From positions 1 through 36,438 of the forward strand of contig QBMS01000029.1 of assembly GCA_003249095.1 (NCBI GenBank): 36,438 nt of DNA, written 5' to 3'. This document shows, piece by piece, positions 5,066-28,636 of this stretch. Origin of the DNA: Snowella sp. Its GTDB lineage: Bacteria; Cyanobacteriota; Cyanobacteriia; Cyanobacteriales; Microcystaceae. The notes beneath the pieces are model-generated. The model saw nothing but the letters and a program-made list of their open reading frames with translations. It ran no database searches and was not told where the DNA came from. The position numbers and the translations under genes are program-made. The number at the start of each line of letters is the position of its first letter. The stretch's first letter is position 1.

Positions 5066-6250
5066 TTAACTTTGGGGATAAACTCTTCCTTTCCAGCCGC
5101 CCCCTTGACCCCGCCAATGCCGTAGGGCTGAATCAATCGTCATTAGATTATAAAAAAGGGCGATTATCGGTAAACTGAGTGACCATAAAGGGGAAAGTTT
5201 ATAGAGTTTTAAGGTCGGTAAATAGGCGATCGCCATTAAAAACCAAGTTAAGCTACTGATAATGATTAAATTGTTAGATTCGAGATAGAATCCGAGCAAT
5301 AAAATGACAGGAGCCGCTAGATAAACTAAGCTCATTCCCAAGACAGTTCCTAATAATAATAAGGGAGAATAATTGAGTTGAGTATAGGCAGTACGGGCAA
5401 TCATATTCCAAATTGTATCGAGGGAGTCGTAGGGACGTAAACTTGTCGTCTTTTCCGTTAAGCCTAACCAAATTGCTGTTGGATTATCAGGGTTAGAAAG
5501 TCCTTTGATTTTTTGGGCTAGGGTACAATCATCAATCAGAGCTTCCCGTAAACTCGGAATACTGCCAATTTCTTCCAGGCGATCGCGTCGAATGAGAATA
5601 CATCCCCCTGCGGCTGCGGCCATTTTATTTCGGGGATTATTAACCCAAGGAAAAGGATAGAGTTTTTGGAAAAAAAAGACAAAGGCAGGAATCAGAAATT
5701 TTTCCCAGACGCTATCACACCGCAATAACACCATGAGAGATGTTAGAGCTAAATCTTCTTTTTCTGCTTTAGTAACTAACTCTTTTAAATTAGTTGAATG
5801 ATGCTCAATGTCTGCATCGGTAAATAAAAAATAATCGGGTGATAATCCTTGATTTTTGGCTGTCTGAATTCCCTGTTCCATCGCCCAAAGTTTCCCTGAC
5901 CAACCGATGGGTAAAGGCTGACCTGAAATTACCTTTAAACGATCTGACTGATTTAAATGATTAGCAATATTTTGAGCGACTTCTCCTGTTTTATCCGTAC
6001 TTTGATCGTCGATTAAAATAATTGAAAATTCTCCAGGATACTCTTGACTTAAAAGAGATTTCAAACTAACTGGCAAGACATCGGCTTCATTTCTCGCAGG
6101 AATAATCGCACAAACACTTGGATAACTGGGTAAATCAATATTATTAATTTCTAATCGTTGATCAGCTTGCCAAAATTGTCCCCAAAATAATAATAAAAAT
6201 ATCCAGATGATTAATGAAAGGGTTGCTATAGTCAGCAAAATTAAAATCAT
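5066..6250 (-). CDS. hpnB: HpnB-type glycosyltransferase family 2
   Basis: This is a membrane GT2 glycosyltransferase resembling the hopene-associated HpnB family. One N-terminal transmembrane helix (about residues 3-25) is followed by the GT-A domain. That domain has IPARNEADVLPVSL, the nucleotide-binding LIDDQSTD, FTDADIEH as the metal-binding DxD, and the EALIDDCTLAQKIKG catalytic region. The segments WSGKLWAMEQG and LYPFPWVNNPRNKMAAAAGG are characteristic of HpnB. Three or so hydrophobic helices close the protein (residues 290-375). HpnB genes usually accompany hopanoid synthesis genes; no squalene-hopene cyclase or other hpn gene is visible here, so the acceptor is not certain. The gene is convergent with aroE, with stops 2 bp apart. 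Confidence 0.82.
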   Translation of the reverse strand: MILILLTIATLSLIIWIFLLLFWGQFWQADQRLEINNIDLPSYPSVCAIIPARNEADVLPVSLKSLLSQEYPGEFSIILIDDQSTDKTGEVAQNIANHLNQSDRLKVISGQPLPIGWSGKLWAMEQGIQTAKNQGLSPDYFLFTDADIEHHSTNLKELVTKAEKEDLALTSLMVLLRCDSVWEKFLIPAFVFFFQKLYPFPWVNNPRNKMAAAAGGCILIRRDRLEEIGSIPSLREALIDDCTLAQKIKGLSNPDNPTAIWLGLTEKTTSLRPYDSLDTIWNMIARTAYTQLNYSPLLLLGTVLGMSLVYLAAPVILLLGFYLESNNLIIISSLTWFLMAIAYLPTLKLYKLSPLWSLSLPIIALFYNLMTIDSALRHWRGQGGGWKGRVYPQS

Positions 6251-6295
6251 ATTTATTTTATTCCATTAGAGGAAAATATATTATTATTCAAGAGA

Positions 6296-6472
6296 TTAGA
6301 CCGCACAGGCATTATCAGAAGATAAAATACTAGGAATCGGTAAAGGATCTCCTGTAGATTGGTAGGATATAATTAAAGACTCTAGGGCTTCTATACCATT
6401 TTTAACCGCGTCTTCATAGGTATCGCCATGAGTCCGCCATTCTTGCCCAGCATTAACGCCCCAGATTACGTT
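6296..6472 (-). pseudogene. HicB-like antitoxin remnant (C-terminal half)
   Basis: An open stretch on the minus strand encodes about 58 residues, ending in a TAA. It contains THGDTYEDAVKNGIEALES and then STGDPLPIPS. This is the hallmark second half of HicB-type antitoxins: the GDTxEEAxxNxxEAIE helix followed by the G-x-P-I-P-x-P tail. The N-terminal half of the HicB fold is missing. The reading frame is closed by TGA at 6473-6475, and the next gene's 3' end overlaps the fragment. No HicA toxin gene (small YcfA-like double-stranded RNA-binding protein) is present nearby. I read this as a decayed toxin-antitoxin locus. Confidence 0.6.
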
Positions 6473-7037
6473 TCATTTCCCTTAATTCATCTTCTATTTC
6501 CCAGTCATGAAATACTGTTTCTAAGGGATCGGCGGCTCGATTATAGGTTCGATAATTGGCTCCCTGGTTCCATCCGACTGTATCCGAATTAGCGGTAGTT
6601 TGAGCAGTTTTTGCCTGTTCTGCCTTCATTTGTTCGGCTTTGATCTGGACTTCTTTCTGGCGTTGTTGAATTTGTTGTAATAATTCCTGGGATTGAATCA
6701 GACGTTTTTTGACCCCTTCCATTTGTCCCCAAACTTGATTACCCTGACGCAAGAGGGCGGCTTCCCTTTCCTGGGCGGCTTGAGCGAGATCTAATCGTTG
6801 GGCTTTTTGAGCTTTCTCAATGCGGGCGTGCCAGGTTTGAATGTCCTGAGCTAGGGCCAGAATTTCATCTTCTAACCGTTTTTTTTGGCCTTCTAATTCC
6901 TGAATCAGCGATCGCGTATCTTGCTCTTGTTCTTTTAACTGTTCTACCAATGCCTGTAATTCTAAATGAGGATTATTCCGCAAAAATTCTTCTAAGCGAG
7001 TCTCCAAAAAATGACTAAAATCGTCAAATATTCCCAT
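6453..7037 (-). CDS. Coiled-coil protein, TIGR04376-like cyanobacterial family
   Basis: This is a 194-residue soluble protein. It opens with MGIFDDFSHFLETRLEEFL, then RNNPHLELQALVEQLKEQE, the conserved start of a cyanobacterial family annotated as TIGR04376. Residues 25-150 are predicted coiled coil, rich in Gln, Glu and Lys. A short linker follows, and then a conserved tail (DPLETVFHDWEIEDELREMKR). No enzymatic motif or membrane segment is present. Function is not established for the family. The 3' end overlaps the HicB remnant by about 20 bp, which suggests that an insertion or deletion next to this gene destroyed the antitoxin gene while leaving this one intact. Confidence 0.75.
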   Translation of the reverse strand: MGIFDDFSHFLETRLEEFLRNNPHLELQALVEQLKEQEQDTRSLIQELEGQKKRLEDEILALAQDIQTWHARIEKAQKAQRLDLAQAAQEREAALLRQGNQVWGQMEGVKKRLIQSQELLQQIQQRQKEVQIKAEQMKAEQAKTAQTTANSDTVGWNQGANYRTYNRAADPLETVFHDWEIEDELREMKRNLGR

Positions 7038-7429: not shown

Positions 7430-10345
7430 TTATTTCGCTTCCATCCAGTTTTTTCCTGCATGAATTTCAACCACTAGGGGAATACTCAGAGAAACCGCTT
7501 CTTCCATCGTCCTTTTGATTTGGGTTTCTAGAATTTCCCATTCTTCAGTCGGCATTTCAAAAATCAATTCATCATGGACTTGTAATAAAAGTTTCGCTTC
7601 ATAATTAGCTAGAATTTTATCGATTTTGACCATCGCAATTTTAATCAGATCCGCACTAGAACCTTGAATCGGAGCATTTGCCGCAGACCTTAAAAGTTGA
7701 CCATCGGTGTAGTTAAAATCGATCGCCTCTAAATCCAAAGAGTGGGGATCAACGCCCCGTAATTTCCGTAAACTCTGACTACCAAATTCAAAATAACGCC
7801 GACGGCCCTCAATCGTCGTTACAAAACCATCGGCGATCGCGCATTTTTTCATCGTTTCTAAATAGTTGAAAACCTGGGCATATTTTTGCCGATAGCGATC
7901 AATAAACTTGCGCCCCTCCTCTGAACTAACCCCTGCTTCCCTGGCAAAACGTTGCGCTCCCATGCCATAAATAACCCCAAAATTAATCGTCTTACCCAGA
8001 TTTCGTTCGGCAGGAGTAATAATTTCCTTATCAAACAATAATCGAGCCGTTACTTCATGGACATCTTGATGATTGCGATAGGCTTCTAATAAAACAGGTT
8101 CCTGACTAAGATGGGCAAGAATCCGTAATTCTATTTGGGAATAATCCGCAGACACTAAAATCCAATTTTCTTTAGGAATAAATGCCTGACGAATTTTACG
8201 AGAAAATTCAGTCCGAATCGGAATATTTTGTAAATTAGGATTAGAAGAAGAAAGGCGACCCGTTGTCGTGACGGTTTGATTAAAATCCGTATGTACCCGT
8301 TGAGTTTTAGGGTTAACTAACATCGGCAAAGCGTCAACGTAGGTAGATTTTAGTTTAGACAGAGTGCGATGATTTAGAATTTCATCAATTAAAGGATGAT
8401 CTCCCTGTAATTTTTCTAAAGTCGCATGATCGGTGGAATAACCCGTTTTAGTTTTACGGGATTTTTTCAGATTTAAACCTAATTTTTCAAATAAAATTTC
8501 TCCTAATTGTTTGGGTGAACCCAGATTAAACTGTTCCCCTGCTAATACGTAGGCTTCTGTTTCAATCCTATGTAAATCTTGTTCTAATTGTTGAGAAAGT
8601 TCTTGTAAATAATTAACATCAATGCGAATCCCCCGATCTTCCATTGCAGCTAAAATTGGCTCTAGGGGTTGTTCAATGGTTAATAATAATTTTTCGAGTT
8701 CAGGTAAATCCGATAATTCTGCTCGTAATTTAGGAACCAATAAAAGGGTACTGTAGGCATCTAAACCGCAGTAATTCGCAACAATTTCAATGCTCACCTG
8801 GGAAATATTTTTCCCTTTTGGAATACCCAAATCTTTATAACTCAGAGCCACAATATTGGGCAAATAGCGGCGACATAAATCGGTTAAATTATGATTTTGT
8901 TCGGGGTGCAAAACATAGCTGGCCAACATCGTATCCAACACCACACCCTGAAGATTAATTCCTTGATGTTTAAAAATCAGTCGGTCAAATTTTGTATTCT
9001 GAAAAACCTTGGGATAGCGATCGCTTTCTAGGATGGGTTTTAAGGCTTCTAAAACCGTTGATTTCTCCAACTGCTGACCGTCAGTATGGCCTACGGGAAA
9101 ATAGGCTATCTCAGTAATTTCTTTCCCCCATGCACAGCCAATTCCCACTAAATCCGAACTAAAAGGATCTAATCCCGTTGTTTCGGTGTCCCAGGCGACG
9201 GGGAACTCAGGATTAGTATAGGTTTGTAATTTTTGAACTAAATTATTGAGCTTTTCGAGAGTATCAATAATTTCGGGTTGAATGAGCGTTTGGGGTTGAT
9301 GATAGGAAGGATTGGGTTCAATCTTGATGGGAGTTTCAGCCGTCTTAAAAAGAGAAAGTTGTTGGGGATCACTGGATTCAATGGGGGTAATAACCGATGG
9401 AGGCGGTGTAATAATTTCTCCGCCAAACTGCCCTTGTAACTGATTTAATTTTTCTAAAAAAGTTCTGAGTTCTAATTTTTCTAAAACTGATTTCAGGGCG
9501 GCACGATCAAAGCCTGTTAATTGAAAAGTTTCTAGGGAATTGTCTAACGGGACATTGGTGACAATTTCGGCTAAATGACGGGAATGTTCCGCATCGGCTT
9601 TACCCGTTTCTAATTTAGTTTTAATCGCTCCTTTAATTTTGCTTAAATTTTCATAAATAGCTTCTAGGGTTCCGTATTCATTCAATAATTTTACAGCAGT
9701 TTTTTCGCCGATGCCCCGCACCCCAGGAATGTTATCCGATTTATCTCCACAGAGAGCTTTGTAGTCAACAATTTGGGCAGGGGTGACTCCCATTTTGGCT
9801 TTGACGGCTTCTTCATTAAATTCACTGTAACCTTCATTTCCCTTTGCTTGAAATGGATTTCTTTCTAGATATAAAACACTAATATTTTTATCAGGATCAA
9901 CTAATTGAAATAGGTCGCGATCGCCACTGACTATTTTTACTTGATAATTAGCTTGGCTGGCTTGATGGGCGAGGGTTCCCAAAATATCGTCGGCTTCGTA
10001 ACCCGCGTAGGTAATCGTTTCTAAATTTAAGGCCGCTAATAATTCCCGTAAATTTCTGAGGTCAACAATAAAATCTTCGGGGGTTTCCTCTCGGTCTGCT
10101 TTATAGTTAACGTCGGCTTGATGACGAAAGGTGGGTTCTCTTCTATCAAATGCGATCGCGATCGCCTGGGGTTTCTGAGACTCAATCACCTGAACTAGGG
10201 AATTTAAAAAACCAAAACACACACTGGTCGGAATTCCACTGACGGTACGGAGTGGCCCTTTTCGAGACAGCGCGAAGGCATAATAGGCACGGAAAGCGAG
10301 GGAATGACCATCGATCAGAATCAGTAGCGGGGCAGAATTAGACAT
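7430..10345 (-). CDS. polA: DNA polymerase I
   Basis: PolA fills gaps and removes RNA primers during replication and repair. At 971 residues it has all three domains. The 5'-3' exonuclease (1 to about 300) has LIDGHSLAFRAYYA, the YEADDILGT acidic cluster, SGDRDLFQL, and GDKSDNIPGVRGIGEKTA. The 3'-5' proofreading domain (about 375-570) keeps its metal ligands: D386 and E388 in WDTETTGLD, and FQNTKFDRLIF and YCGLDAYST further on. The polymerase domain (about 590-971) has motif A DYSQIELRILAH, motif B RNLGKTINFGVIYGMG and motif C VHDELIFE. All catalytic residues appear intact, so it should be a proofreading enzyme. It follows btpA on the same strand by about 100 bp, with a possible hairpin between them. 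Confidence 0.97.
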   Translation of the reverse strand: MSNSAPLLILIDGHSLAFRAYYAFALSRKGPLRTVSGIPTSVCFGFLNSLVQVIESQKPQAIAIAFDRREPTFRHQADVNYKADREETPEDFIVDLRNLRELLAALNLETITYAGYEADDILGTLAHQASQANYQVKIVSGDRDLFQLVDPDKNISVLYLERNPFQAKGNEGYSEFNEEAVKAKMGVTPAQIVDYKALCGDKSDNIPGVRGIGEKTAVKLLNEYGTLEAIYENLSKIKGAIKTKLETGKADAEHSRHLAEIVTNVPLDNSLETFQLTGFDRAALKSVLEKLELRTFLEKLNQLQGQFGGEIITPPPSVITPIESSDPQQLSLFKTAETPIKIEPNPSYHQPQTLIQPEIIDTLEKLNNLVQKLQTYTNPEFPVAWDTETTGLDPFSSDLVGIGCAWGKEITEIAYFPVGHTDGQQLEKSTVLEALKPILESDRYPKVFQNTKFDRLIFKHQGINLQGVVLDTMLASYVLHPEQNHNLTDLCRRYLPNIVALSYKDLGIPKGKNISQVSIEIVANYCGLDAYSTLLLVPKLRAELSDLPELEKLLLTIEQPLEPILAAMEDRGIRIDVNYLQELSQQLEQDLHRIETEAYVLAGEQFNLGSPKQLGEILFEKLGLNLKKSRKTKTGYSTDHATLEKLQGDHPLIDEILNHRTLSKLKSTYVDALPMLVNPKTQRVHTDFNQTVTTTGRLSSSNPNLQNIPIRTEFSRKIRQAFIPKENWILVSADYSQIELRILAHLSQEPVLLEAYRNHQDVHEVTARLLFDKEIITPAERNLGKTINFGVIYGMGAQRFAREAGVSSEEGRKFIDRYRQKYAQVFNYLETMKKCAIADGFVTTIEGRRRYFEFGSQSLRKLRGVDPHSLDLEAIDFNYTDGQLLRSAANAPIQGSSADLIKIAMVKIDKILANYEAKLLLQVHDELIFEMPTEEWEILETQIKRTMEEAVSLSIPLVVEIHAGKNWMEAK

Positions 10346-12493: not shown

Positions 12494-14287
12494 ATGTCCC
12501 TTCCCATTCGCAATCTTGCCATCATCGCCCACGTCGATCACGGTAAAACGACCTTAGTTGATGCACTCCTCAAACAATCCGGCATTTTTCGCGAAGGGGA
12601 AGACGTTCCGATTTGTGTCATGGACTCCAATGCCCTAGAACGAGAGCGGGGAATTACCATCCTTTCTAAAAATACCGCCGTTCGTTATCAAGACACCCTC
12701 ATTAATATTGTTGATACCCCAGGCCACGCGGACTTTGGTGGAGAAGTTGAACGGGTATTGGGAATGGTAGATGGTTGCGTCCTAATCGTGGATGCCAATG
12801 AAGGCCCCATGCCCCAAACCCGCTTTGTGTTGAAAAAAGCCTTAGAAAAAGGATTACGTCCGATCCTGGTCGTCAATAAAATCGATCGCCCCCGTGCTGA
12901 TCCCAACACAGCCGTTGATAAAGTTTTTGATTTATTTGTGGAATTAGGCGCAGACGATGACCAGTGTGATTTCACGACCCTTTTTGCTTCGGGTTTAGCA
13001 GGTTACGCGAAAGACTCTTTAGAAGATGAAGGGGTTGATATGACTCCCCTGTTCCAAGCGATTTTACACCACGTTCCGCCCCCGGCTGGAGACCCTACTA
13101 AACCCCTCCAATTGCAGGTGACAACCCTTGATTATTCCGACTATTTGGGACGGATTATCATTGGTCGGATTCACAATGGAACCATTAAATCGGGTCAACA
13201 GGTCGCCCTGGTTAAAGATACGGGAGACATCGTTAAAGGTCGGGTGACTAAGTTATTAGGCTTCTCTGGTTTACAACGAGTCGAAATGGAAGAGGCTAGT
13301 GCGGGTTATATTGTAGCGGTCGCAGGTTTTGCAGATGCGAATATCGGTGAAACCCTGACCAGTGCGGATGATCCCCAAGCATTACCTTTGATTAAAGTTG
13401 ATGAACCAACCCTACAAATGACGTTTTCCGTTAATGATTCACCCTTTGCAGGTCAAGAAGGCCAATTTGTGACTTCTCGCCAAATCCGCGATCGCCTCCA
13501 CCGTGAATTAGAAACCAATGTGGCTCTACGGGTGGAAGACAGTGATTCTGCTGAAAAATTCCTCGTTTCAGGACGGGGAGAATTGCATCTAGGGATTTTG
13601 ATTGAAACCATGCGTCGCGAGGGCTACGAGTTTCAGGTCTCCCAACCCCAGGTAATTTTCCGCGAAGTCAATGGCCAGCCCTGTGAACCCTTTGAATATT
13701 TAGTCTTAGACGTTCCTGAAGCGGCTGTGGGATCTTGTATTGACCGACTGAATCAACGTCGGGGTGAAATGCAGGATATGCAAAAAGGCACGAATAATCG
13801 TACTCAACTAGAGTTTATTATTCCCGCGCGGGGCTTAATCGGTTTTCGGGGTGAATTCATCCGCATGACGCGAGGTGAAGGCATCATGAACCATAGTTTT
13901 CTGGAATATCGGAAACTGTCGGGAACGGTGGAAACCCGTTACAACGGGATTATTACCGCCTTTGAAGAAGGAACCGCAACTTTCTACGCCATGAAAAACG
14001 CAGAAGATCGGGGTGTTTTCTTCATCACGCCTGGTACGAAAGTTTATCGCGGCATGATTATTGGTGAACATAACCGTCCCCAGGATTTAGATTTGAATGT
14101 TTGCAAGGCCAAACAATTGACCAATCACCGTTCAGCAACAGGGGATGAATTGGTGCAATTACAAGCTCCCATTGAAATGAGCCTGGAGCGGGCTTTGGAA
14201 TATATCGGCTCGGATGAGTTGGTAGAGGTTACACCAAAGTCGGTTCGTTTACGCAAAGTCAGCAAACAAAAGGTGGCTAAACGCTAG
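12494..14287 (+). CDS. typA: Translational GTPase TypA/BipA
   Basis: TypA (BipA) is a ribosome-associated GTPase related to EF-G and LepA, involved in ribosome assembly and stress adaptation. The G motifs are intact: [10 protein letters not shown] (G1, residues 12-21), RERGITI (G2), [12 protein letters not shown] (G3) and NKIDRPRA (G4). The length of 597 residues matches the family. Domain V and the TypA-specific C-terminal domain are recognisable in [26 protein letters not shown] and [23 protein letters not shown], diagnostic of TypA rather than LepA. The ATG at 12494 gives the canonical start. A rho-independent terminator follows 40 bp after the stop. Confidence 0.97.
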
Positions 14288-14324
14288 GCTTACTTTCAGG
14301 ACTTTTCTGTTAAATAAACTTATT

Positions 14325-14359
14325 AATCCCCCTCGATCCTCGAATTTTGGGGGATTTTT
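14325..14359 (+). terminator. Rho-independent terminator after typA
   Basis: AATCCCCC (14325-14332) pairs with GGGGGATT (14349-14356), and the stem runs into a TTTTT run. It lies between the convergent typA and dapB genes and could act on both strands, since the left arm is preceded by A-rich sequence on the plus strand. Confidence 0.75.
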
Positions 14360-14440
14360 AATTGATTTTTTCCCCAGATTCTTAACTTGATGGGGCGATC
14401 GCATTACAATAAATCATTTTCCATCAATTTTTACTCACAT

Positions 14441-15268
14441 TTATAACAATTTTTCCAAGCCATACACCAAGGTTTTTAAATTAATCACTTTACGGATTCC
14501 TAGCAAAACCCCTGGCATATAACAAGCTCGGTCAGTCGTGTCATGACGTAACGTATAAATTTGACCAGGAGACCCAAAAATAATTTCTTGATGGGCTAAT
14601 AATCCAGGTAAACGAATACTATGAATATTGATATTTTCGGGGCCTAAGCCGCCCCTGGCTCCCGTAATAATCTCTTTTTCATTAACTAACATTGGATTAT
14701 AGGTTTTGCCTAACTCTGCTAACATTTCTGCGGTTTTAATGGCAGTTCCACTCGGTGCATCGGCTTTTTGATTGTGGTGCAATTCAATAATTTCTACATG
14801 GTCAAAATATTGAGAAGCCTGGATCGCCGCTTGTTGCATCAATAAAACCCCGATCGCGAAATTAGGCGCAATTAAAACTCCTGTACTGGCTTTATCCGCA
14901 AATTCTGTCAGGTCTTCAATCTGTTTCGCACTTAATCCCGTTGTTCCCACCACTGGACGCACCCCATAGGCGATCGCGGAACGAACATTTTCATAAACCC
15001 CATCGGGATGGGTAAAATCCACCATCACCCCTTGAATTTTCTCCTGGGTCGCCAACACCAAAACACTTTGTAAATCATCCAAGACTGGTACTTCCAACGG
15101 GCCAATACCGACAATTTCGCCAATATCCTGTCCTCTGATATGAGGATTGGCATCAACCGCCCCCACAAGCATCATATCTTCCGCCTTAGCAACGGCTTTA
15201 ATCACCTCTCGTCCCATTTTCCCCGCCGCCCCATTGACGACCACTGGAATTAACGCATCATGAGTCAT
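14441..15268 (-). CDS. dapB: 4-hydroxy-tetrahydrodipicolinate reductase
   Basis: DapB reduces 4-hydroxy-tetrahydrodipicolinate with NAD(P)H in the diaminopimelate/lysine pathway, which also feeds peptidoglycan. The dinucleotide loop is [15 protein letters not shown] (residues 8-22). The catalytic and substrate-binding motif [15 protein letters not shown] is complete, and [11 protein letters not shown] and [12 protein letters not shown] are typical. The length of 275 residues is usual for cyanobacterial enzymes. It is convergent with typA across a shared terminator region. It is followed upstream by the gene for a membrane coiled-coil protein on the same strand, about 110 bp away. Confidence 0.96.
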
Positions 15269-21018: not shown

Positions 21019-23115
21019 ATGCCATTTATATTCGGACTAATTGGTCTATTAATCGGCGGTGCGATTGCTTATTTCTTTTTCCAAAATAAATTACAGCAGA
21101 TCCAGCGTAAACTCGAAAGTTCAGAAAAAAAATTGGAACGGGCGAATCGGGCCCTTGAAGACACTGAATCCCTGCGATCGCAACAGTCCATCCACGCCCA
21201 GGAACTCCAAAATGCTCGCCAACAACTCCAATCCGTCGAGGCTTCCTATCAGGGGCAACTCCGTAATTTAGAGGAGTCCTATGAGTTGCAATTACAAGAG
21301 GCTGAAAAACTCCAGGGAAATCCTGCTGCCCTCGCCGATTCCCAAGACCGCACTAGACAAATTGAGCAATCCTATCAAGCTCAGATTCAGGAATTACAAG
21401 CCAATCATCACAACGAAAAAGTCGCGATCGAGCAATCCTACCAAGCTCAAATCCGAGAATTACAACAATCCTATCAACAATCCCTAGAAGAACTTCAACA
21501 AACTCCTCCTGTTCAAGCGTTTGACACTTCCTCTCCGACTTCTTCCGAAACAACTGAATCTGGTGGTTGGCAAGGAGCCGCAATGGGAGCCGCCGCGATC
21601 GCAGGGGCCGCAGGGTTAGCGGGTTGGGCAACCTCTAATTTTCTTGATCGGGAAGAGGAAGAAAACCCCGTTGTAGAAGAATCGCCTGTTATAGAAGAAT
21701 CGCCCGTTATAGAAGAAATCAGTGAAGAAAGCGTTGCCGAATCTCCTTTTGAAGTCAGTGAAGAAACCCCCGCAGAAAATTGGGCAGATCAACCCCTAGC
21801 AGAAGAAGTTGCGATCGACTCTGAAATGATGGGCTGGACAGAAACTCCTCCAGCTATTGAAGAACCTGTTGCCGAATTTCCCTTTGAAATCAGTGAAGAA
21901 ACTCCCGCAGAAAATTGGGCCGATCAACCCCTAGCAGAAGAAGTTGCGACAGAATCTGAAATGATGGGCTGGACAGAAACTCCCCCAGCTATCGAAGAAA
22001 TTACCGAAGAACTGGTTGCCGAATCTCCCTTTGAAATCCCTGAAGAAACTCCCGAAGACAATTGGGCCGATGCTTCCTTGGGAGAAGATCTCCTAGACGG
22101 AGCAGATCTATCCAGTTGGACAAATGACGAACCCGCACCTGTTTCCGAAGAAATTACCGAGGAACTCGTTGCCGAATCTCCCTTTGAAATCCCTGAAGAA
22201 ACTCCCGAAGACAATTGGGCTGATGCTTCCTTGGGAGAAGATCTTCTGGATGGAGCAGATCTATCCAGTTGGACAAATGCCGAACCCGCGCCTGTTTCCG
22301 AAGAAATTACCGAGGAACTTGTTGCCGAATCTTCCCTTGAAATCTCTGAAGAAAGTCCCGAAGACAATTGGGCTGATGCTTCCTTGGGAGAAGAGCTTTT
22401 GGGCGGAACAGAATTAGCCAGTTGGACAGAAACCGAATCCCCCCAATTGTTAGAAGAACCGATTCAGTCCCTAGAGGAAACGGTTGAAACTCCTGATACT
22501 TCTTTAGATTTAAGGGATTTAAGCGAAGATTTTGATTCACCCATAGAAGCTGAATTGCCTTCCTTTGAAAATGAAGACGCTTTGTTAGAGACCTCGACGG
22601 ACTCTGAACTAGATTTTCTTTCTATGTTGCAAACAGAGGAAACCTCCCTGGATGAAGCCGAAGAACTTTCTTCCTTTATGGACACGGAAGATCCCGCTTT
22701 GCCCGATTTTTTGGGGGAAGAGACCCTGAACGATGATCTTCAACTATTGGATATGTTTCCGCCAGAAACTGGAGATTTAGCCAATATGTCTGAAACCTTG
22801 GCGGGTGAAGAGAATGCGCCTTTCATCAATTTTTTTGATTCGGAAGCCGACAAATCCGATCTTGAGTTTTTAGAAATGCTGAAAACGGATGATGATAATC
22901 TCAACCGTTTAGGATCGAATGAATCCGATGATTTATTCGGAGATTTATTTACTCCCGATGATTCCGCCTCATCTGATATCAATGAGCTATTTGATTCGGT
23001 GGATAGTCAAGCCCCGAAAGCGAGCCAAGAGGGATTAGAAGAGTTGTTTGGAGATGATTCACTCTCCTTCGATAATTGGGATCTACCTAGTTCTGAAAAG
23101 TCTTCTTCTGACTAA
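21019..23115 (+). CDS. Acidic, repeat-rich membrane-anchored protein
   Basis: I do not recognise this 698-residue protein. The ATG at 21019 is preferred, with GGAG about 10 nt upstream; the frame is open to 20953. An N-terminal transmembrane helix (FIFGLIGLLIGGAIAYFFF) is followed by a coiled coil (about 22-165) containing repeats of EQSYQAQIxELQ. A Gly/Ala-rich hydrophobic segment (about 183-207) could be a second membrane element. Residues 232-478 are five tandem repeats of 45-51 residues, consensus EEITEELVAESPFEIPEETP then EDNWADASLGEDLL. Units 3 and 4 differ at 8 of 153 bases, 7 of them silent. The remainder is extremely acidic, with LxFLxML-type motifs. A scaffold or binding role is likely; no enzyme motif is seen. 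Confidence 0.65.
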   Translation: MPFIFGLIGLLIGGAIAYFFFQNKLQQIQRKLESSEKKLERANRALEDTESLRSQQSIHAQELQNARQQLQSVEASYQGQLRNLEESYELQLQEAEKLQGNPAALADSQDRTRQIEQSYQAQIQELQANHHNEKVAIEQSYQAQIRELQQSYQQSLEELQQTPPVQAFDTSSPTSSETTESGGWQGAAMGAAAIAGAAGLAGWATSNFLDREEEENPVVEESPVIEESPVIEEISEESVAESPFEVSEETPAENWADQPLAEEVAIDSEMMGWTETPPAIEEPVAEFPFEISEETPAENWADQPLAEEVATESEMMGWTETPPAIEEITEELVAESPFEIPEETPEDNWADASLGEDLLDGADLSSWTNDEPAPVSEEITEELVAESPFEIPEETPEDNWADASLGEDLLDGADLSSWTNAEPAPVSEEITEELVAESSLEISEESPEDNWADASLGEELLGGTELASWTETESPQLLEEPIQSLEETVETPDTSLDLRDLSEDFDSPIEAELPSFENEDALLETSTDSELDFLSMLQTEETSLDEAEELSSFMDTEDPALPDFLGEETLNDDLQLLDMFPPETGDLANMSETLAGEENAPFINFFDSEADKSDLEFLEMLKTDDDNLNRLGSNESDDLFGDLFTPDDSASSDINELFDSVDSQAPKASQEGLEELFGDDSLSFDNWDLPSSEKSSSD
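21712..22452 (+). repeat. Five coding tandem repeats of about 150 bp
   Basis: The units are 21712-21858, 21859-21993, 21994-22146, 22147-22299 and 22300-22452. The last three are each exactly 153 bp. Units 1 and 2 resemble each other more than the rest (both contain AENWADQPLAEEVA and MMGWTETPPA), suggesting two separate rounds of duplication. Confidence 0.85.
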
Positions 23116-23137
23116 AATTCTCTTTGTCATCTAGATG

Positions 23138-23177
23138 TTTTAGACGGTCTAACACTGGGGCTGTCTAAAATATTTTT
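23138..23177 (+). terminator. Probable terminator after the acidic repeat protein
   Basis: TTTTAGAC (23138-23145) and GTCTAAAA (23163-23170) form an 8-bp stem with a 17-nt loop, followed by TATTTTTTT. It lies 23 bp after the stop codon and separates this gene from frmA. Confidence 0.6.
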
Positions 23178-23181
23178 TTAA

Positions 23182-24330
<1,149 letters not shown>

Positions 24331-24677
24331 TTTAGAATAATTTCTCTCTTTGCATGAAGATATACGTGATCGCTGATATTGTGGGAAGCGTTTCTTCGTT
24401 GCTGAAAAGTTTTCAGGGAAGCGAGGAGTTTACAAAATAGTACATTTTAAGTTCTGGGGGATGATATAAAGATAAATGTTTAACAGAATCCGTATTTGGC
24501 GTGATACATGAAAAGTTTCCGTATAATCTATAGTTAGCTACTTCAGCCCTGGGCCAGAACAATTACGTTTTAGATTGCAGAATCGTAAGCGTTGTTATTG
24601 GCAATGAGTTAAGCTTCTAGATAAAGCTAGTCCTAACATACCTACATCAATACTCCTCTTTCCCATAGGGATTGAAT
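24331..24677. other. Intergenic region before the TIR-Mrr gene
   Basis: This 347-bp AT-rich gap has no HIP1 site, no convincing reading frame and no RNA gene. It should contain the promoter of the TIR-Mrr operon, but I cannot pick out a confident -35/-10 pair. AGGG at 24667-24670, 7 nt before the ATG at 24678, is the ribosome binding site for the next gene. Confidence 0.45.
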
Positions 24678-25544
24678 ATGACCACTCTTGAACCCATTTC
24701 GGAACAAAGACCACAAGTTTTCGTAAGCTACGCAAGTGCAGACAGTATGGATGCAAAAGTAATTGTGGAGGGGTTACGTTCACGGGGTATCAACGTATGG
24801 TTAGATGCAGATGAAATTCGCCCAGGAGATCATTGGGTTGAATCGATTCGCACTGCTATTTCAGCTAGTGCTTATTTTCTGCTTTTATTGTCTAAGCATT
24901 CAGTTCAATCTTCTTGGATGACTCATGAAGTTATATTAAAAGAACTTCAAAGCCGAGATGTTACTTTTCTGCCCGTGCTTTTGGAAGACTGCAATATTCC
25001 TTCACCTCTTGCCGTATATCAATACTTTGATATGAGAAGTGGGGTTGAAGAAAATTTAGGGAAACTTGCAGAGGCTTTAAGATTTACTCCAAAAATTGAT
25101 TTTGAGAAACTATCTGCACAAACTTTTGAGCAACTGGTTGTAGATCTTCTTGAGAAACTCGGCTTTGTTAACTTACAGCCAGAAATACATCCAAGAGACT
25201 CAGGAGTTGATGCTGTGGTTGAGTTCCGACAAAAAGATCCATTTGGTGCTGAAATTCGTGAAGTGTACGCTGTTGAAACTAAATTCTATCGCCATTCTCG
25301 TGCAGGTTTAGAAGCATTAAGACAGTTGGCTGGATATGCTAAAAGTGATCCAAAAATTAACAAAGCACTTCTGGTTACTAATGGAAATCTTACCTCTGTT
25401 GCTCTTGATTGGGTGAATGATGTCCCTAAAGTTATTGGTATTCCGATACGGGTTATTGATGGAACAGAATTGAAGCGGCTTCTCTTACAAAACACTGATT
25501 TAGTCTCTAAATACTTTCCCCCTAGCTTAAGTAATGCTTCATGA
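24678..25544 (+). CDS. TIR domain fused to Mrr-type restriction endonuclease domain
   Basis: This 288-residue protein has two domains. Residues 11-135 are a TIR domain: QVFVSYASAD (betaA/box 1), VWLDADEIRPGDHW, and SKHSVQSSWMTHEV with E84 at the position of the NADase glutamate. Residues 140-285 are a PD-(D/E)XK nuclease of the Mrr_cat type. Its likely active site is E151 (FEQLVVDLLEKLGF), D178 (GVDAVVEF) and E200/K202 (VETKFY), with a following LRQLAGYA helix. There is no N-terminal Mrr winged helix; the TIR domain takes that place. The start at 24678 has AGGG 7 nt upstream and is preferred over the TTG at 24672. The stop overlaps the next gene (ATGA). Restriction or abortive defence is the likely role, by inference. 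Confidence 0.85.
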   Translation: MTTLEPISEQRPQVFVSYASADSMDAKVIVEGLRSRGINVWLDADEIRPGDHWVESIRTAISASAYFLLLLSKHSVQSSWMTHEVILKELQSRDVTFLPVLLEDCNIPSPLAVYQYFDMRSGVEENLGKLAEALRFTPKIDFEKLSAQTFEQLVVDLLEKLGFVNLQPEIHPRDSGVDAVVEFRQKDPFGAEIREVYAVETKFYRHSRAGLEALRQLAGYAKSDPKINKALLVTNGNLTSVALDWVNDVPKVIGIPIRVIDGTELKRLLLQNTDLVSKYFPPSLSNAS

Positions 25545-26080
25545 GCCGAATTACAGATTTGGTTAATCGACTAGATAACTGTCCTGCTGGAGATAGCGGA
25601 TGGCGAAAATTTGAAGACCTCTGTACAGAAATTCTCGAATTTTTATTTGTTCCGCCATTGGTGAGACCCATTGTACAGCCTCGCACATACTCTGGTACAA
25701 ATCGGCGAGATGCTGTATTTCCTAATCGCAATTTCGATGAAAAGCATGGTTGGGGTTTGCTACTCCGAGAATTAGAAGCAAGGATGGTACTATTTGAATT
25801 TAAAAACTATGGAACAACAGATATTGGAAATGAAGAAGTGATTCAAACTAATAATTACTTGACTGAACCTATGGGTAAGCTGGCGATTATGATATGTAGT
25901 AAACTTCCTGGCAATGGTGCTCATATACAGCGAAATACTATATACAGTCGCGATAAGAAAGTGATTCTTTTTATGACTAAAGAACATCTTAAGGAAATGC
26001 TTTTTATCAAAGAACGGGGTGAAGATCCATGCGATTTAATAGTCGATCTTGTTGAAAGATTTTACTTGCAGCATGAATAA
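25541..26080 (+). CDS. PD-(D/E)XK nuclease-like protein paired with TIR-Mrr
   Basis: This 179-residue protein begins inside the stop of the TIR-Mrr gene (ATGA), so the two are co-translated. Its pattern fits a restriction-endonuclease-like core: a helix with GWRKFEDLCTEILEFLF (E25), D57 in TNRRDAVFPN, and E86-x-K88 in LFEFKNY. The following helix and strand are QTNNYLTEPMGKLAIMICSK. It lacks any other recognisable domain, signal peptide or membrane segment. I do not know a named family. It may be a second nuclease, a DNA-recognition subunit or a regulator of the TIR-Mrr protein. Calling it a nuclease rests on motif spacing alone. Confidence 0.7.
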   Translation: MSRITDLVNRLDNCPAGDSGWRKFEDLCTEILEFLFVPPLVRPIVQPRTYSGTNRRDAVFPNRNFDEKHGWGLLLRELEARMVLFEFKNYGTTDIGNEEVIQTNNYLTEPMGKLAIMICSKLPGNGAHIQRNTIYSRDKKVILFMTKEHLKEMLFIKERGEDPCDLIVDLVERFYLQHE

Positions 26081-26113
26081 GCAAACATATCTAATCGGTA
26101 GATCAATAGCTGA

Positions 26114-26292
26114 TTAAGTGTCCAACGTGATCGCCATTTCATTTTTATCACTATGCAAAACAGCCAAATTGTTGAGAGTTGTGGCCACATCAGGCAGAAA
26201 AGAACCAGGATTCTCTGCCGCTAATTCTCTTCTAATCTGCAAAGCCTCTTGGTATTCTTGCTCCGCGATCACTATTTCATTTCTATTAACTC
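26114..26292 (-). pseudogene. Remnant of a tetratricopeptide repeat protein
   Basis: The minus strand encodes about 55 residues ending in a TAA at 26114-26116. It includes NRNEIVIAEQEYQEALQIRR, then ELAAENPGSFLPDVATTLNN and LAVLHSDKNEMAI. This is the kinesin-light-chain-type TPR (TPR_12) unit that occurs in long arrays in cyanobacterial proteins, often with CHAT or NB-ARC domains. No start codon or further repeats are present; upstream it runs into the 3' end of the dipeptidase gene. It is a leftover of a larger gene. The plus-strand frame over the same bases is a shadow. Confidence 0.65.
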
Positions 26293-26997
26293 CTATATCC
26301 TTCCATAGCGGGCAATCACAGGGCTTTGGGGATTTCGTTGATTATATAACCAGGCCCACAATTGATCGCCGAGGGAAAAATGCCACCATTCTCCTGGATG
26401 CCGTAAAAAACCCGCCGATTCCATTACCTCATTCAATAAAACCCGATTTTTATGAAATAATTGGGACTTGGGATCGGAATGATTCGCATAAAAATTCGGT
26501 TGAGAAATGTCCGATAGATCATCAATTTCTCCGCCCATATCAACCAGATTTCCCGACGAATCTACTAGGGTAATATCCATCGCTGAACCCGTACTATGGG
26601 GCGGTGGTGTCGCCAAATCGTAGCTAGGAATAGCCCAAATTTTATAGACCTCTGTGAATAGTTCCTGACGCTTGGTAGGCGATAAATCTTTCTCTTCTAA
26701 TCCTTTTTGTTGTAATAAAAAAGCAAAGGTGTAATCCACCATAAATTGTTGAACTTCCACAGGGCGATAGGCATCAAAAATTTGAATTTTCCAACCCGAA
26801 CAACGCTGTTCTAAAGACTCTTGCGCTTTTTTTAGGGCTTCAATAACCTGCGATCGCAAACAATAGGGAGATTTGCCTTGATAATCTGCCCCTAACTGCT
26901 GATAGGGAGGTGGATCGGTTAAGACAATATTGGGTAAGGCGATCGCCAATAGGGGATCACCACACTCTTCGATTAAAATTTGCTGATAGGGTTTCAT
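26293..26997 (-). CDS. VanX/DdpX-type D-Ala-D-Ala dipeptidase (peptidase M15)
   Basis: This 234-residue zinc dipeptidase belongs to the VanX/DdpX (M15D) family, which hydrolyses D-alanyl-D-alanine. The motifs are complete: FDAYRP (75-79 region), the zinc site PHSTGSAMD with H134 and D141, and GEWWHF with catalytic E203 and zinc ligand H206. No signal peptide is present, so it acts in the cytoplasm, likely in cell-wall dipeptide recycling. Other vancomycin resistance genes are absent, so a resistance role is not supported. I use the ATG at 26997; a TTG two codons upstream is possible. It is divergent from the double-META gene across 99 bp. Confidence 0.88.
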   Translation of the reverse strand: MKPYQQILIEECGDPLLAIALPNIVLTDPPPYQQLGADYQGKSPYCLRSQVIEALKKAQESLEQRCSGWKIQIFDAYRPVEVQQFMVDYTFAFLLQQKGLEEKDLSPTKRQELFTEVYKIWAIPSYDLATPPPHSTGSAMDITLVDSSGNLVDMGGEIDDLSDISQPNFYANHSDPKSQLFHKNRVLLNEVMESAGFLRHPGEWWHFSLGDQLWAWLYNQRNPQSPVIARYGRI

Positions 26998-27030
26998 CGT
27001 CAATTTTCAAAAAATCGAATAAAATCTTGT

Positions 27031-27047
27031 CTAATCTTCTAGATTAG
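27031..27047. promoter_or_regulatory. Small palindrome between divergent genes
   Basis: CTAATCT and AGATTAG are exact inverted arms separated by TCT, located midway between the divergent dipeptidase and META-protein genes. This is the position expected for an operator acting on both. No known regulator consensus is matched. Confidence 0.3.
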
Positions 27048-27096
27048 GACGATCAATGAATTGTCATTATCTCATCCTCCGCCCTATCCAGACTAG

Positions 27097-28284
27097 ATGA
27101 AAATAAAAATGATAGCATTCAGCCAGAAAAAGCCTAATTTTAAATTAAATATGCGTTTCTCAAAAAAAATAGTCGCCAATATGAGTCTTCTCCTCCTGGG
27201 AACAGGAATCGGTTTCACTCCTTTGGTTAGTCATTCCGTATTGGCCCAAATGTCCGAGGAAAATACCCAAAATTCTACAATTCTTGCCCAAAAAGTAACC
27301 TCTCTAGAGAATACCTCCTGGCAACTCACAAGCCTGGGAGAGGCTCAACCCTTAGCAGAAAAGCCCATTACCCTCGAATTTGGTGAAAAAAATCGCCTAT
27401 CGGGTTCATCGGGATGCAACCGTTACATGGGGTCATTTAGCACCAAGGGAAACCAATTTTCCGTCAAATCGCCCCTGGGTTCGACTATGATGGCTTGCCC
27501 CGAAGACCTGATGAAACAGGAACAACAATTTTTGCAAGCCCTAAGCGCAGGCAAAAGTTATAAGATTAACGCGAATGGAGAACTAGAGATTCAATATCGT
27601 GAGGGAAGTCGTAATAAACGATTGAAATTTTCGCCCCTGAAGACAGGTAGCGCAGATCAGAAAATGGCTCTAGAGAATACCTCCTGGCAACTGATGGCAA
27701 CGGGTCAATCCCTACCGCAAACAGAAAAACCGATTACCTTAACTTTTAGCGAAAATAATCGTCTAGCAGGTTCGTCGGGTTGCAATCGTTATATGGGAAG
27801 CTTTAAGGTCACAGGTAACCAATTTGAAGTCAAATCTCCCCTCGCTTCTACTCGCATGGCTTGTCCTGAAACCTTAATGAAGCGAGAACAGGAATTTTTG
27901 CAAGCCCTAAGTGCGGCCAAGCGTTACCAAATTAACGACAAAGGAGAACTAGAAATCCAGTATGGTAGCGGAACAGGGAACAATGTATTGAGGTTTTTGC
28001 CAACCAAAACTAGTAAAGTTATCGAAAAAATCGTTTACGTCAATGGTCGTACTGTCCCTTGCACAGGAGTCGCTCCTCAACAATGTTTGCAGATCAAGGA
28101 ATCAATGAAGGATGATTGGACGTTGCTTTATCAGGGGATTAAAGGATTTAAACATGAGCAGGGCTACGTTTACAGATTGCGAGTACGGGAAGAAATCATC
28201 GCCAATCCTCCTGCTGATGGAAGTTCGCGTGAATGGGTGTTAGTTGATGTACTTGAAAAAGTCGCAATGAAGGTTCAAAAATAA
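27097..28284 (+). CDS. Secreted double META (HslJ-like) domain protein with DUF4377
   Basis: This 395-residue exported protein has an N-terminal signal region (MRFSKKIVANMSLLLLGTGI, cleavage probably after SVLA near residue 50). Two META domains follow, at about 70-180 and 192-302. Each has ENTSWQL, the SGSSGCNRYMGSF motif (AGSSGCNRYMGSF in the second) and MACPEDLM / MACPETLM. The domains are a tandem duplication. The C-terminus (about 308-392) resembles DUF4377, with CTGVAPQQCLQIKE and WTLLYQGIKGF, a pairing known from other META proteins. HslJ-type proteins are linked to envelope stress and novobiocin resistance in E. coli; the molecular function is unclear. Two cysteines in each META domain could bond in the periplasm. 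A shorter start at 27151 is possible. Confidence 0.82.
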   Translation: MKIKMIAFSQKKPNFKLNMRFSKKIVANMSLLLLGTGIGFTPLVSHSVLAQMSEENTQNSTILAQKVTSLENTSWQLTSLGEAQPLAEKPITLEFGEKNRLSGSSGCNRYMGSFSTKGNQFSVKSPLGSTMMACPEDLMKQEQQFLQALSAGKSYKINANGELEIQYREGSRNKRLKFSPLKTGSADQKMALENTSWQLMATGQSLPQTEKPITLTFSENNRLAGSSGCNRYMGSFKVTGNQFEVKSPLASTRMACPETLMKREQEFLQALSAAKRYQINDKGELEIQYGSGTGNNVLRFLPTKTSKVIEKIVYVNGRTVPCTGVAPQQCLQIKESMKDDWTLLYQGIKGFKHEQGYVYRLRVREEIIANPPADGSSREWVLVDVLEKVAMKVQK

Positions 28285-28636
28285 TTTTTTACCATTCTTA
28301 AAATTTCGCTTAAATGACTGCCCAAGGTAGTGTTTTAGGCGATTTTTTGCATTTAATTCTGTTCACCGTATATGGCGAGCTATACGGAGAAAATTGACGA
28401 GGTAAGAAATTCAATTCCCAGAAAATACTTAAGAATGAGTGGCGTAAACCAAAAAATACTCACGGAAGAAAAATAAGTGTTTATACTTAAGCAGTATGGG
28501 TGAGGAGATATTCCGTAAAAATAAGATCAATCCTTTGACTTAATTCCCTCTAGATTGTCTAAGCCTTGTTTTTCAGAGGTTTTAAGGATTGGCGATCGCG
28601 CTCATTTAGGTTTAAAAATCAAATTTCATAATTAAT

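Follow-up and report, generated by a model that had tools for sequence, protein, structure and literature searches.

Type IV restriction enzymes of the Mrr type carry an N-terminal DNA-reading domain in front of their nuclease, and Shedu proteins consist of one nuclease domain behind varied N-terminal modules. In a 36,438-nucleotide stretch of DNA from Snowella sp., analysed here as a whole and called the window, two overlapping genes encode a TIR-Mrr protein (P1) and a smaller protein (P2) that resemble several such systems in part (Table 1). P1 has the Mrr_cat domain with its E, D and ExK residues in common with Mrr-type restriction enzymes, but it carries a TIR domain in the place of the DNA-reading domain and is accompanied by a second putative nuclease gene. 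The P2-like proteins, like Shedu (SduA), have varied N-terminal modules before the nuclease, but P2 itself lacks SduA_C according to Pfam.

The nearest model for the pair would be R.BspD6I, which, in the accessible part of PMC6261011, combines a small free-standing nuclease with a larger one, as we propose here: the large subunit cuts one strand and the small subunit the other, the small one needing an active large one. The folds of the R.BspD6I small subunit and of FokI resemble the predicted fold of P2 at 10-11% identity. However, the R.BspD6I partner is a site-specific nickase, whereas P2 is paired with TIR-Mrr and no methyltransferase lies beside the window pair. More generally, the pair differs from restriction-modification systems in that no cognate DNA methyltransferase was found among the ten flanking ORFs of the window; among the ORFs traced at the other loci, a methyltransferase-like gene follows the pair in L002 only.

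Combinations of the two P1 modules have precedents. Short Argonaute REase-TIR proteins join PD-(D/E)XK and TIR in one chain, as P1 does, such nuclease-TIR chains being known from Argonaute neighbourhoods (accessible part of PMC2743648), and Mrr and TIR are described as alternative modules behind AbiJ-type domains (accessible part of PMC3710099). In P1, however, the order is TIR then REase, the PADLOC Aga_REase-TIR match covers the TIR only (residues 16-135), and we found neither an Argonaute-associated (APAZ-type) domain in P1 nor a Piwi match in the ten flanking ORFs. Compared with Thoeris, ThsB profiles hit only the TIR part of P1 (best 2.4e-6), P2 has no ThsA-type match, and the NCBIfam Thoeris type III score for P1 is 32 against a cut-off of 220.

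Two catalogued families extend into P2. It matches the C-terminal half of phrog_31260 (positions 190-362 of 365, 1e-22), the N-terminal part of which matches the P1 Mrr domain as a profile; phrog_31260 is, however, one gene without TIR, whereas Mrr and P2 are encoded here by two genes. P2 also matches the C-terminal third of M36A from the PADLOC candidate PDC-M36 (298-444 of 457, 5.3e-16), but the first ~295 positions of M36A are missing here and no M36B lies beside P2, whereas locus L026 has both the M36A N-terminal part and M36B. In the libraries searched, the P2 domain is covered only as part of PDC-M36A and phrog_31260. The first-pass annotation had recognised no named system in this pair, and our searches agree: PADLOC gave partial matches only (many to TIR parts, one to the PDC-M36A tail) and NCBIfam none above cut-off. 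No description of the pair was found in the literature searched, which covered few subscription papers, and PMC12988326 gave no hit for PDC-M36, TIR or Mrr.

Table 1. Features of the TIR-Mrr/P2 gene pair, in window coordinates
Feature	Coordinates	Strand	Basis
Shared cassette (two genes and up to about 150 bases 5')	24530..26095	+	blastn
P1, TIR-Mrr protein, 288 aa	24678..25544	+	homologues at 11/14 loci
TIR domain, P1 residues 14-130	24717..25067	+	Pfam TIR_2 and model matches
E84 codon (presumed NADase glutamate)	24927..24929	+	alignment, 12 rows; role by analogy
Mrr_cat nuclease domain, P1 residues 143-269; E151, D178, E200, K202	25104..25484	+	Pfam, Foldseek, alignment
ATGA, overlap of P1 stop and P2 start	25541..25544	+	sequence
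P2, FokI/R.BspD6I-small-subunit-like nuclease (predicted), 179 aa; E25, D57, E86-x-K88-N89	25541..26080	+	model, motif counts

The TIR-Mrr protein P1

The two-gene arrangement described in the first-pass annotation was confirmed. P2 starts within the stop codon of P1, and all the residues named at the time are found where they had been placed (E84, E151, D178 and E200-x-K202 in P1; E25, D57 and E86-x-K88 in P2). For P1, a TTG 6 bases earlier is also a possible start. The proposed fusion holds as well: TIR_2 (7e-27) is followed directly by Mrr_cat (9.7e-17, 61.6 bits against a cut-off of 21), both above the Pfam curated cut-offs. In the predicted structure of P1 (pLDDT 78.0, pTM 0.70), residues 11-136 align with TIR structures with a best Z of 16.8, and the TIR resembles those of NADases, for example the TIRs of SPARTA and AbTir.

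We aligned P1 with its homologues (12 rows including the window). The Mrr residues E151, E200 and K202 are kept in all 12 rows and D178 in 10, being replaced by N in L008 and L009. E84, which by analogy we take to be the NADase glutamate of the TIR, is kept in nine rows (G in L003, D in L008 and L009), and W80 in nine of the 11 rows checked. The TIR of the window is 2 residues shorter than that of the 11 other homologues just after E84 (24927-24935, P1 residues 84-86). The genome of the window contains a second Mrr_cat gene, within a 270-aa frame (G000:C98:5267-5632).

These data bear on the earlier suggestion that the TIR acts as an NADase: it is weakened because E84 is kept in just 9 of 12 homologues, while in the window itself the glutamate is intact. 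A reading in which the TIR is the effector would have the nuclease pair sense foreign DNA, or act in parallel; cleavage of NAD+ or synthesis of a cyclic signal by the TIR would then halt the cell. We consider it fairly unlikely: the retention of E84 in the window and most homologues, that of W80 and the likeness to NADase TIRs favour it, but position 84 is G or D in three of the 12 rows, the TIR is the least conserved segment, and the fused Mrr-P2 proteins do without it.

Foldseek matches of the P1 model include MspJI and AspBHI, two modification-dependent enzymes aligned with its Mrr part, for which Mrr_cat is the best Pfam match. They are consistent with a restriction pair that depends on DNA modification (type IV-like) and stands alone, the TIR being a structural dimeriser in place of the Mrr DNA-reading domain, with no sensing of infection. 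However, Pfam detected neither Mrr_N nor SRA nor any further known DNA-reading domain in either protein, and TIRs are rarely known to read DNA; we regard this explanation as quite unlikely.

P2 and its changing partners

P2 belongs to no Pfam family at E ≤ 1, has no usable match in NCBIfam or among PDB sequences (the sole NCBIfam row has an E of 0.11), and matched none of 50,697 phage records at E ≤ 0.01. Its structure was predicted with AlphaFold2 from 20 sequences (pLDDT 84.9, pTM 0.84). Foldseek returned nothing at E ≤ 0.001 for this model, the best matches including RPB5 (0.002) and FokI (0.023). Aligning the Foldseek candidates with VIA-align placed FokI at the top (Z 11.9, 154 residues), with Z scores of 11.8 for Nt.BspD6I and 11.6 for the free-standing R.BspD6I small subunit (2p14, 152/186 residues). 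Shedu (Z 7.1, 131 residues) and RPB5-type chains (7.3 and less) are both below FokI. The predicted P2 model thus resembles the FokI/R.BspD6I cleavage domain in fold.

An alignment of P2 with 22 homologues found by tblastn or profile, and not by the motif, gave 23 rows in which D57, K88 and N89 are each invariant. Position 86 is acidic throughout (E in 20 rows, D in 3) and E25 is kept in 18, so that the family signature D-(x)n-(D/E)xKN holds in 23 of 23 motif-independent rows. In another alignment (A4, 20 rows), the four named P2 residues are among the 12 invariant columns of 179 (hypergeometric p 1.2e-5), an enrichment that is partly built in because its 9 viral rows came from a DNA pattern containing ExKN. 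L006 and L013 were omitted from the P2 alignments. With its predicted FokI-like fold and D...(D/E)xK in all 23 rows, P2 can with high probability be assigned to the PD-(D/E)XK-type nucleases, its catalysis being predicted. This agrees with the second nuclease that the first-pass annotation had considered as one possibility. An origin of P2 as a duplicate of the Mrr domain is unsupported, profile comparison with Mrr parts giving a probability of 6.9.

Conservation differs between the segments. Identity to the window among ten relatives is 43-87% for the TIR, 47-92% for Mrr and 65-93% for P2. The ratio dN/dS is below 0.5 for each segment in 11 pairs, the top value being that of the TIR of L008-L009 (0.032/0.074); together with the conserved motif, this leads us to reject P2 as a chance ORF. 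The P2 active site is complete in 11 of 11 homologues, including L008 and L009, where the TIR E84 and the Mrr D178 are both lost. Judged from these sequences, the TIR is the most variable segment and P2 the best preserved. On this pattern, P2 looks like the catalyst that the module cannot do without, and the TIR like a rapidly evolving sensor or switch. The TIR may nevertheless be catalytic in the window and in other lineages that keep E84, since the TIR and Mrr sites of the window are intact.

The P2-like domain occurs in several other contexts. It stands alone in L018 and L021, and follows an Mrr-like domain in one polypeptide on three plasmids (L016, L017, L019) and eight viral contigs (L045-L047, L049, L051-L054). 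It is also found behind a WD40 propeller (L027), an HNH domain (L063) and, weakly, an ORC-CDC6-like ATPase (L020, 27.7 bits against a cut-off of 27), and forms the tail of PDC-M36A in L026, with two PDC-M36B genes downstream. Among the Mrr-P2 fusions, which correspond to phrog_31260 (PHROGs, function unknown), Mrr_cat was detected in all five proteins scanned with Pfam (L045, L016, L019, L053, L052), and the E, D, E and K of the Mrr site are invariant among 11 aligned fused proteins (alignment A7), six of them outside the Pfam scan (L017, L046, L047, L049, L051, L054). A7 omits the near-identical L048 and L050 (frame cut or overlong); in the proviral fused protein of L050, a near-copy of L048, other residues occupy the Mrr ExK position. 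The P1 Mrr domain matches that of the fused proteins by profile with a probability of 98.9. A tree of 32 rows, read only at the level of these groups since several branches are long, unites the TIR-Mrr partners (93/85) and places the fused proteins together with the WD40 rows and the two stand-alone ones (95/98). Because Mrr and P2 are fused in one polypeptide without TIR, these architectures suggest that the two act together as a two-nuclease core, to which the TIR would have been added.

Among the genes with the M36A architecture, those at L022 5089-6465 and L023 5095-6465, on plasmids of Leptolyngbya and Methylobacterium, follow genes annotated as UmuC/UmuD-type, which hints at a tie to DNA damage. 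In genome G914 (L076), a truncated PDC-M36A-like frame is found close to others that, in our reading, encode a TIR domain and a NACHT-type NTPase.

A compact and rare cassette

Searching the genome collection with short pieces of P2 yielded 14 loci. In 11 of them (L002-L012), P1 is immediately upstream of P2; the adjacency that the first-pass annotation suggested checking in homologues is regular. In the window and these 11 pairs, the genes overlap by 1 to 26 bases, and by 4 bases in 7 of the 12. The hosts of the 11 pairs are cyanobacteria and MAGs labelled Thermoplasmatales and Dehalococcoidia. P2 from these MAGs is 65-68% identical to that of the window which, taking the contig labels as given, suggests horizontal transfer.

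The other three loci depart from this organization. In L013 a deletion fuses the TIR start in frame to P2 from about residue 26 (7896-8465), with loss of E25; the syntenic L010 is intact. L015 has N upstream of P2 and a stop within it, and L014 shows a different, distant architecture, the N-terminus of which has no Pfam family and is receiver-like in our own reading. Among the 11 pairs, the P2 gene of L006 is frame-shifted by one base a few codons after its start. At L062, a fragment of P2 lies next to the site-2-protease-like gene also seen in L008 and L009, apparently a case of decay in place.

The module is rare. P2-profile matches were found in 3 of 386 genomes of the phylum of the window (the window itself, one WD40 and one PDC-M36A architecture), and in 5 of 350, 3 of 292 and 3 of 246 genomes of three other phyla, the centre genome being counted in each. 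In the family of a Nostoc, 15 of 192 genomes had matches, five of them TIR-Mrr pairs. P1 gave eight matches at E ≤ 1e-15 in the same 192 genomes: the five pairs, an Mrr remnant followed by the first residues of P2, and two TIR-only proteins. All six Mrr-containing matches thus adjoin P2 (5) or a remnant of its start (1). On plasmids, 23 records matched P1, none covering > 80% of it.

We compared window positions 22001-28500 with ten cyanobacterial loci by blastn. At nine of them, the matching region has its left edge between 24530 and 24941 and its right edge between 26076 and 26095; L013 gave two pieces only. In eight further locus pairs compared, the surroundings are common to L004/L006, L005/L007, L008/L009 and L010/L013, and the cassette is what L002/L003, L002/L004, L003/L004 and L005/L010 have in common (with 41-81 further bases in two cases). 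The gene lists suggest about nine different settings. The cassette moves as a compact unit.

In the window, the pair is preceded by an alcohol dehydrogenase gene (23218-24330, + strand; ADH_N, ADH_zinc_N) with a TAG at 24217-24219, past which the frame goes on to 24330 with similar-looking protein; this is either a pseudogene or a sequencing error. It is followed by an M15 peptidase gene on the opposite strand, which was found in all 39 genomes searched in the family of the window. At the 14 other loci retrieved, neither frmA nor the pair was found within about 1.5 kb on each side (less for L086), and the META gene occurs in L084 only; no empty insertion site is demonstrable because gene order differs too much at the 14 loci. 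A promoter and terminator scan gave no more sites than shuffles.

A defence-island setting, raised in the first-pass annotation, is unsupported. Among the ten flanking window ORFs, scanned with Pfam only, no family was recognised from defence. The neighbour ORFs listed for L002-L013 number 95, and 75 of them were scanned with PADLOC; the remainder are all 11 ORFs of L013 and 9 of the 12 of L009, which nearly duplicates L008. At E ≤ 1e-10 the scan gave matches to 71 PADLOC families, none of them in more than 3 members. Ten neighbour ORFs were traced singly: two matched (an OLD/GajA-like ATPase in L011 and the methyltransferase-like gene in L002) and eight gave no match. Outside these ten, defence genes may lie behind the PDC-S44, PDC-M52B and most mad matches. 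In our own reading, most neighbours look like housekeeping genes, for example metK in L004/L006 and a hydrogenase gene in L005/L007. In L011, the ATPase gene (12913-14550) lies beside the archaeal-labelled pair, and the ORF at 5960-6877, without PADLOC match, has a C-terminus that we read as TIR-like or deoxyribosyltransferase-like.

This setting bears on the possibility that the pair is not immune at all but an addiction, homing or repair nuclease on mobile DNA, with a selfish or housekeeping role. The mostly housekeeping neighbours, the Mrr-P2 fusions on plasmids and viral contigs and the decay in place in L006, L013, L062 and L070 are in keeping with it. We nevertheless hold it decidedly improbable: patchy distribution, mobility and ready loss are just as characteristic of defence genes, the PADLOC candidate PDC-M36A has the P2-like domain as its tail, and no antitoxin-like third gene recurs in the neighbour gene lists.

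A proposed mode of action

We favour, with a probability of roughly 0.5, a mobile TIR-gated two-nuclease module serving putative restriction or abortive DNA destruction. P2 would be a small nuclease with a fold like that of FokI and the R.BspD6I small subunit; together with Mrr in P1 it would cut DNA as a pair, each partner contributing one active site. Mrr and P2 might each cut one strand or, alternatively, P2 might be the main cutter and Mrr a DNA-binding or dimer partner; the latter option fits L008 and L009, because there D178 of Mrr is changed to N and P2 is complete. The TIR would serve as an accessory sensor or oligomerisation switch, clearing the pair to act in response to an infection signal or foreign DNA, and the outcome would be restriction of the invading DNA or abortive DNA destruction. 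A physical complex of P1 and P2, DNA cutting, gating by the TIR and protection of the cell are what we infer from the data above. Several observations speak against this TIR-gated reading: the housekeeping-like neighbours, the lack of a Foldseek match for P2 at E ≤ 0.001, the altered ExK place in L050, and the intact TIR and Mrr sites of the window itself.

Bacterial TIR proteins have been studied mostly as NAD+ enzymes or signal makers. We tentatively propose, at somewhat short of even odds, that P2 stands for a family of immune nucleases not described before, recognisable by D...(D/E)xKN and a FokI-like fold and coupled to exchangeable sensor modules (TIR-Mrr, Mrr, WD40, ATPase, HNH, M36A), and that in the TIR-Mrr version the TIR governs DNA cleavage by a heterodimer of two nucleases, whether in place of NAD+ consumption or in addition to it. 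The TIR shows less conservation than the nucleases joined to it and is missing from the fused version, which makes a role in gating nucleases directly testable. A good model of the P2 domain would reveal further combinations of sensor and nuclease.
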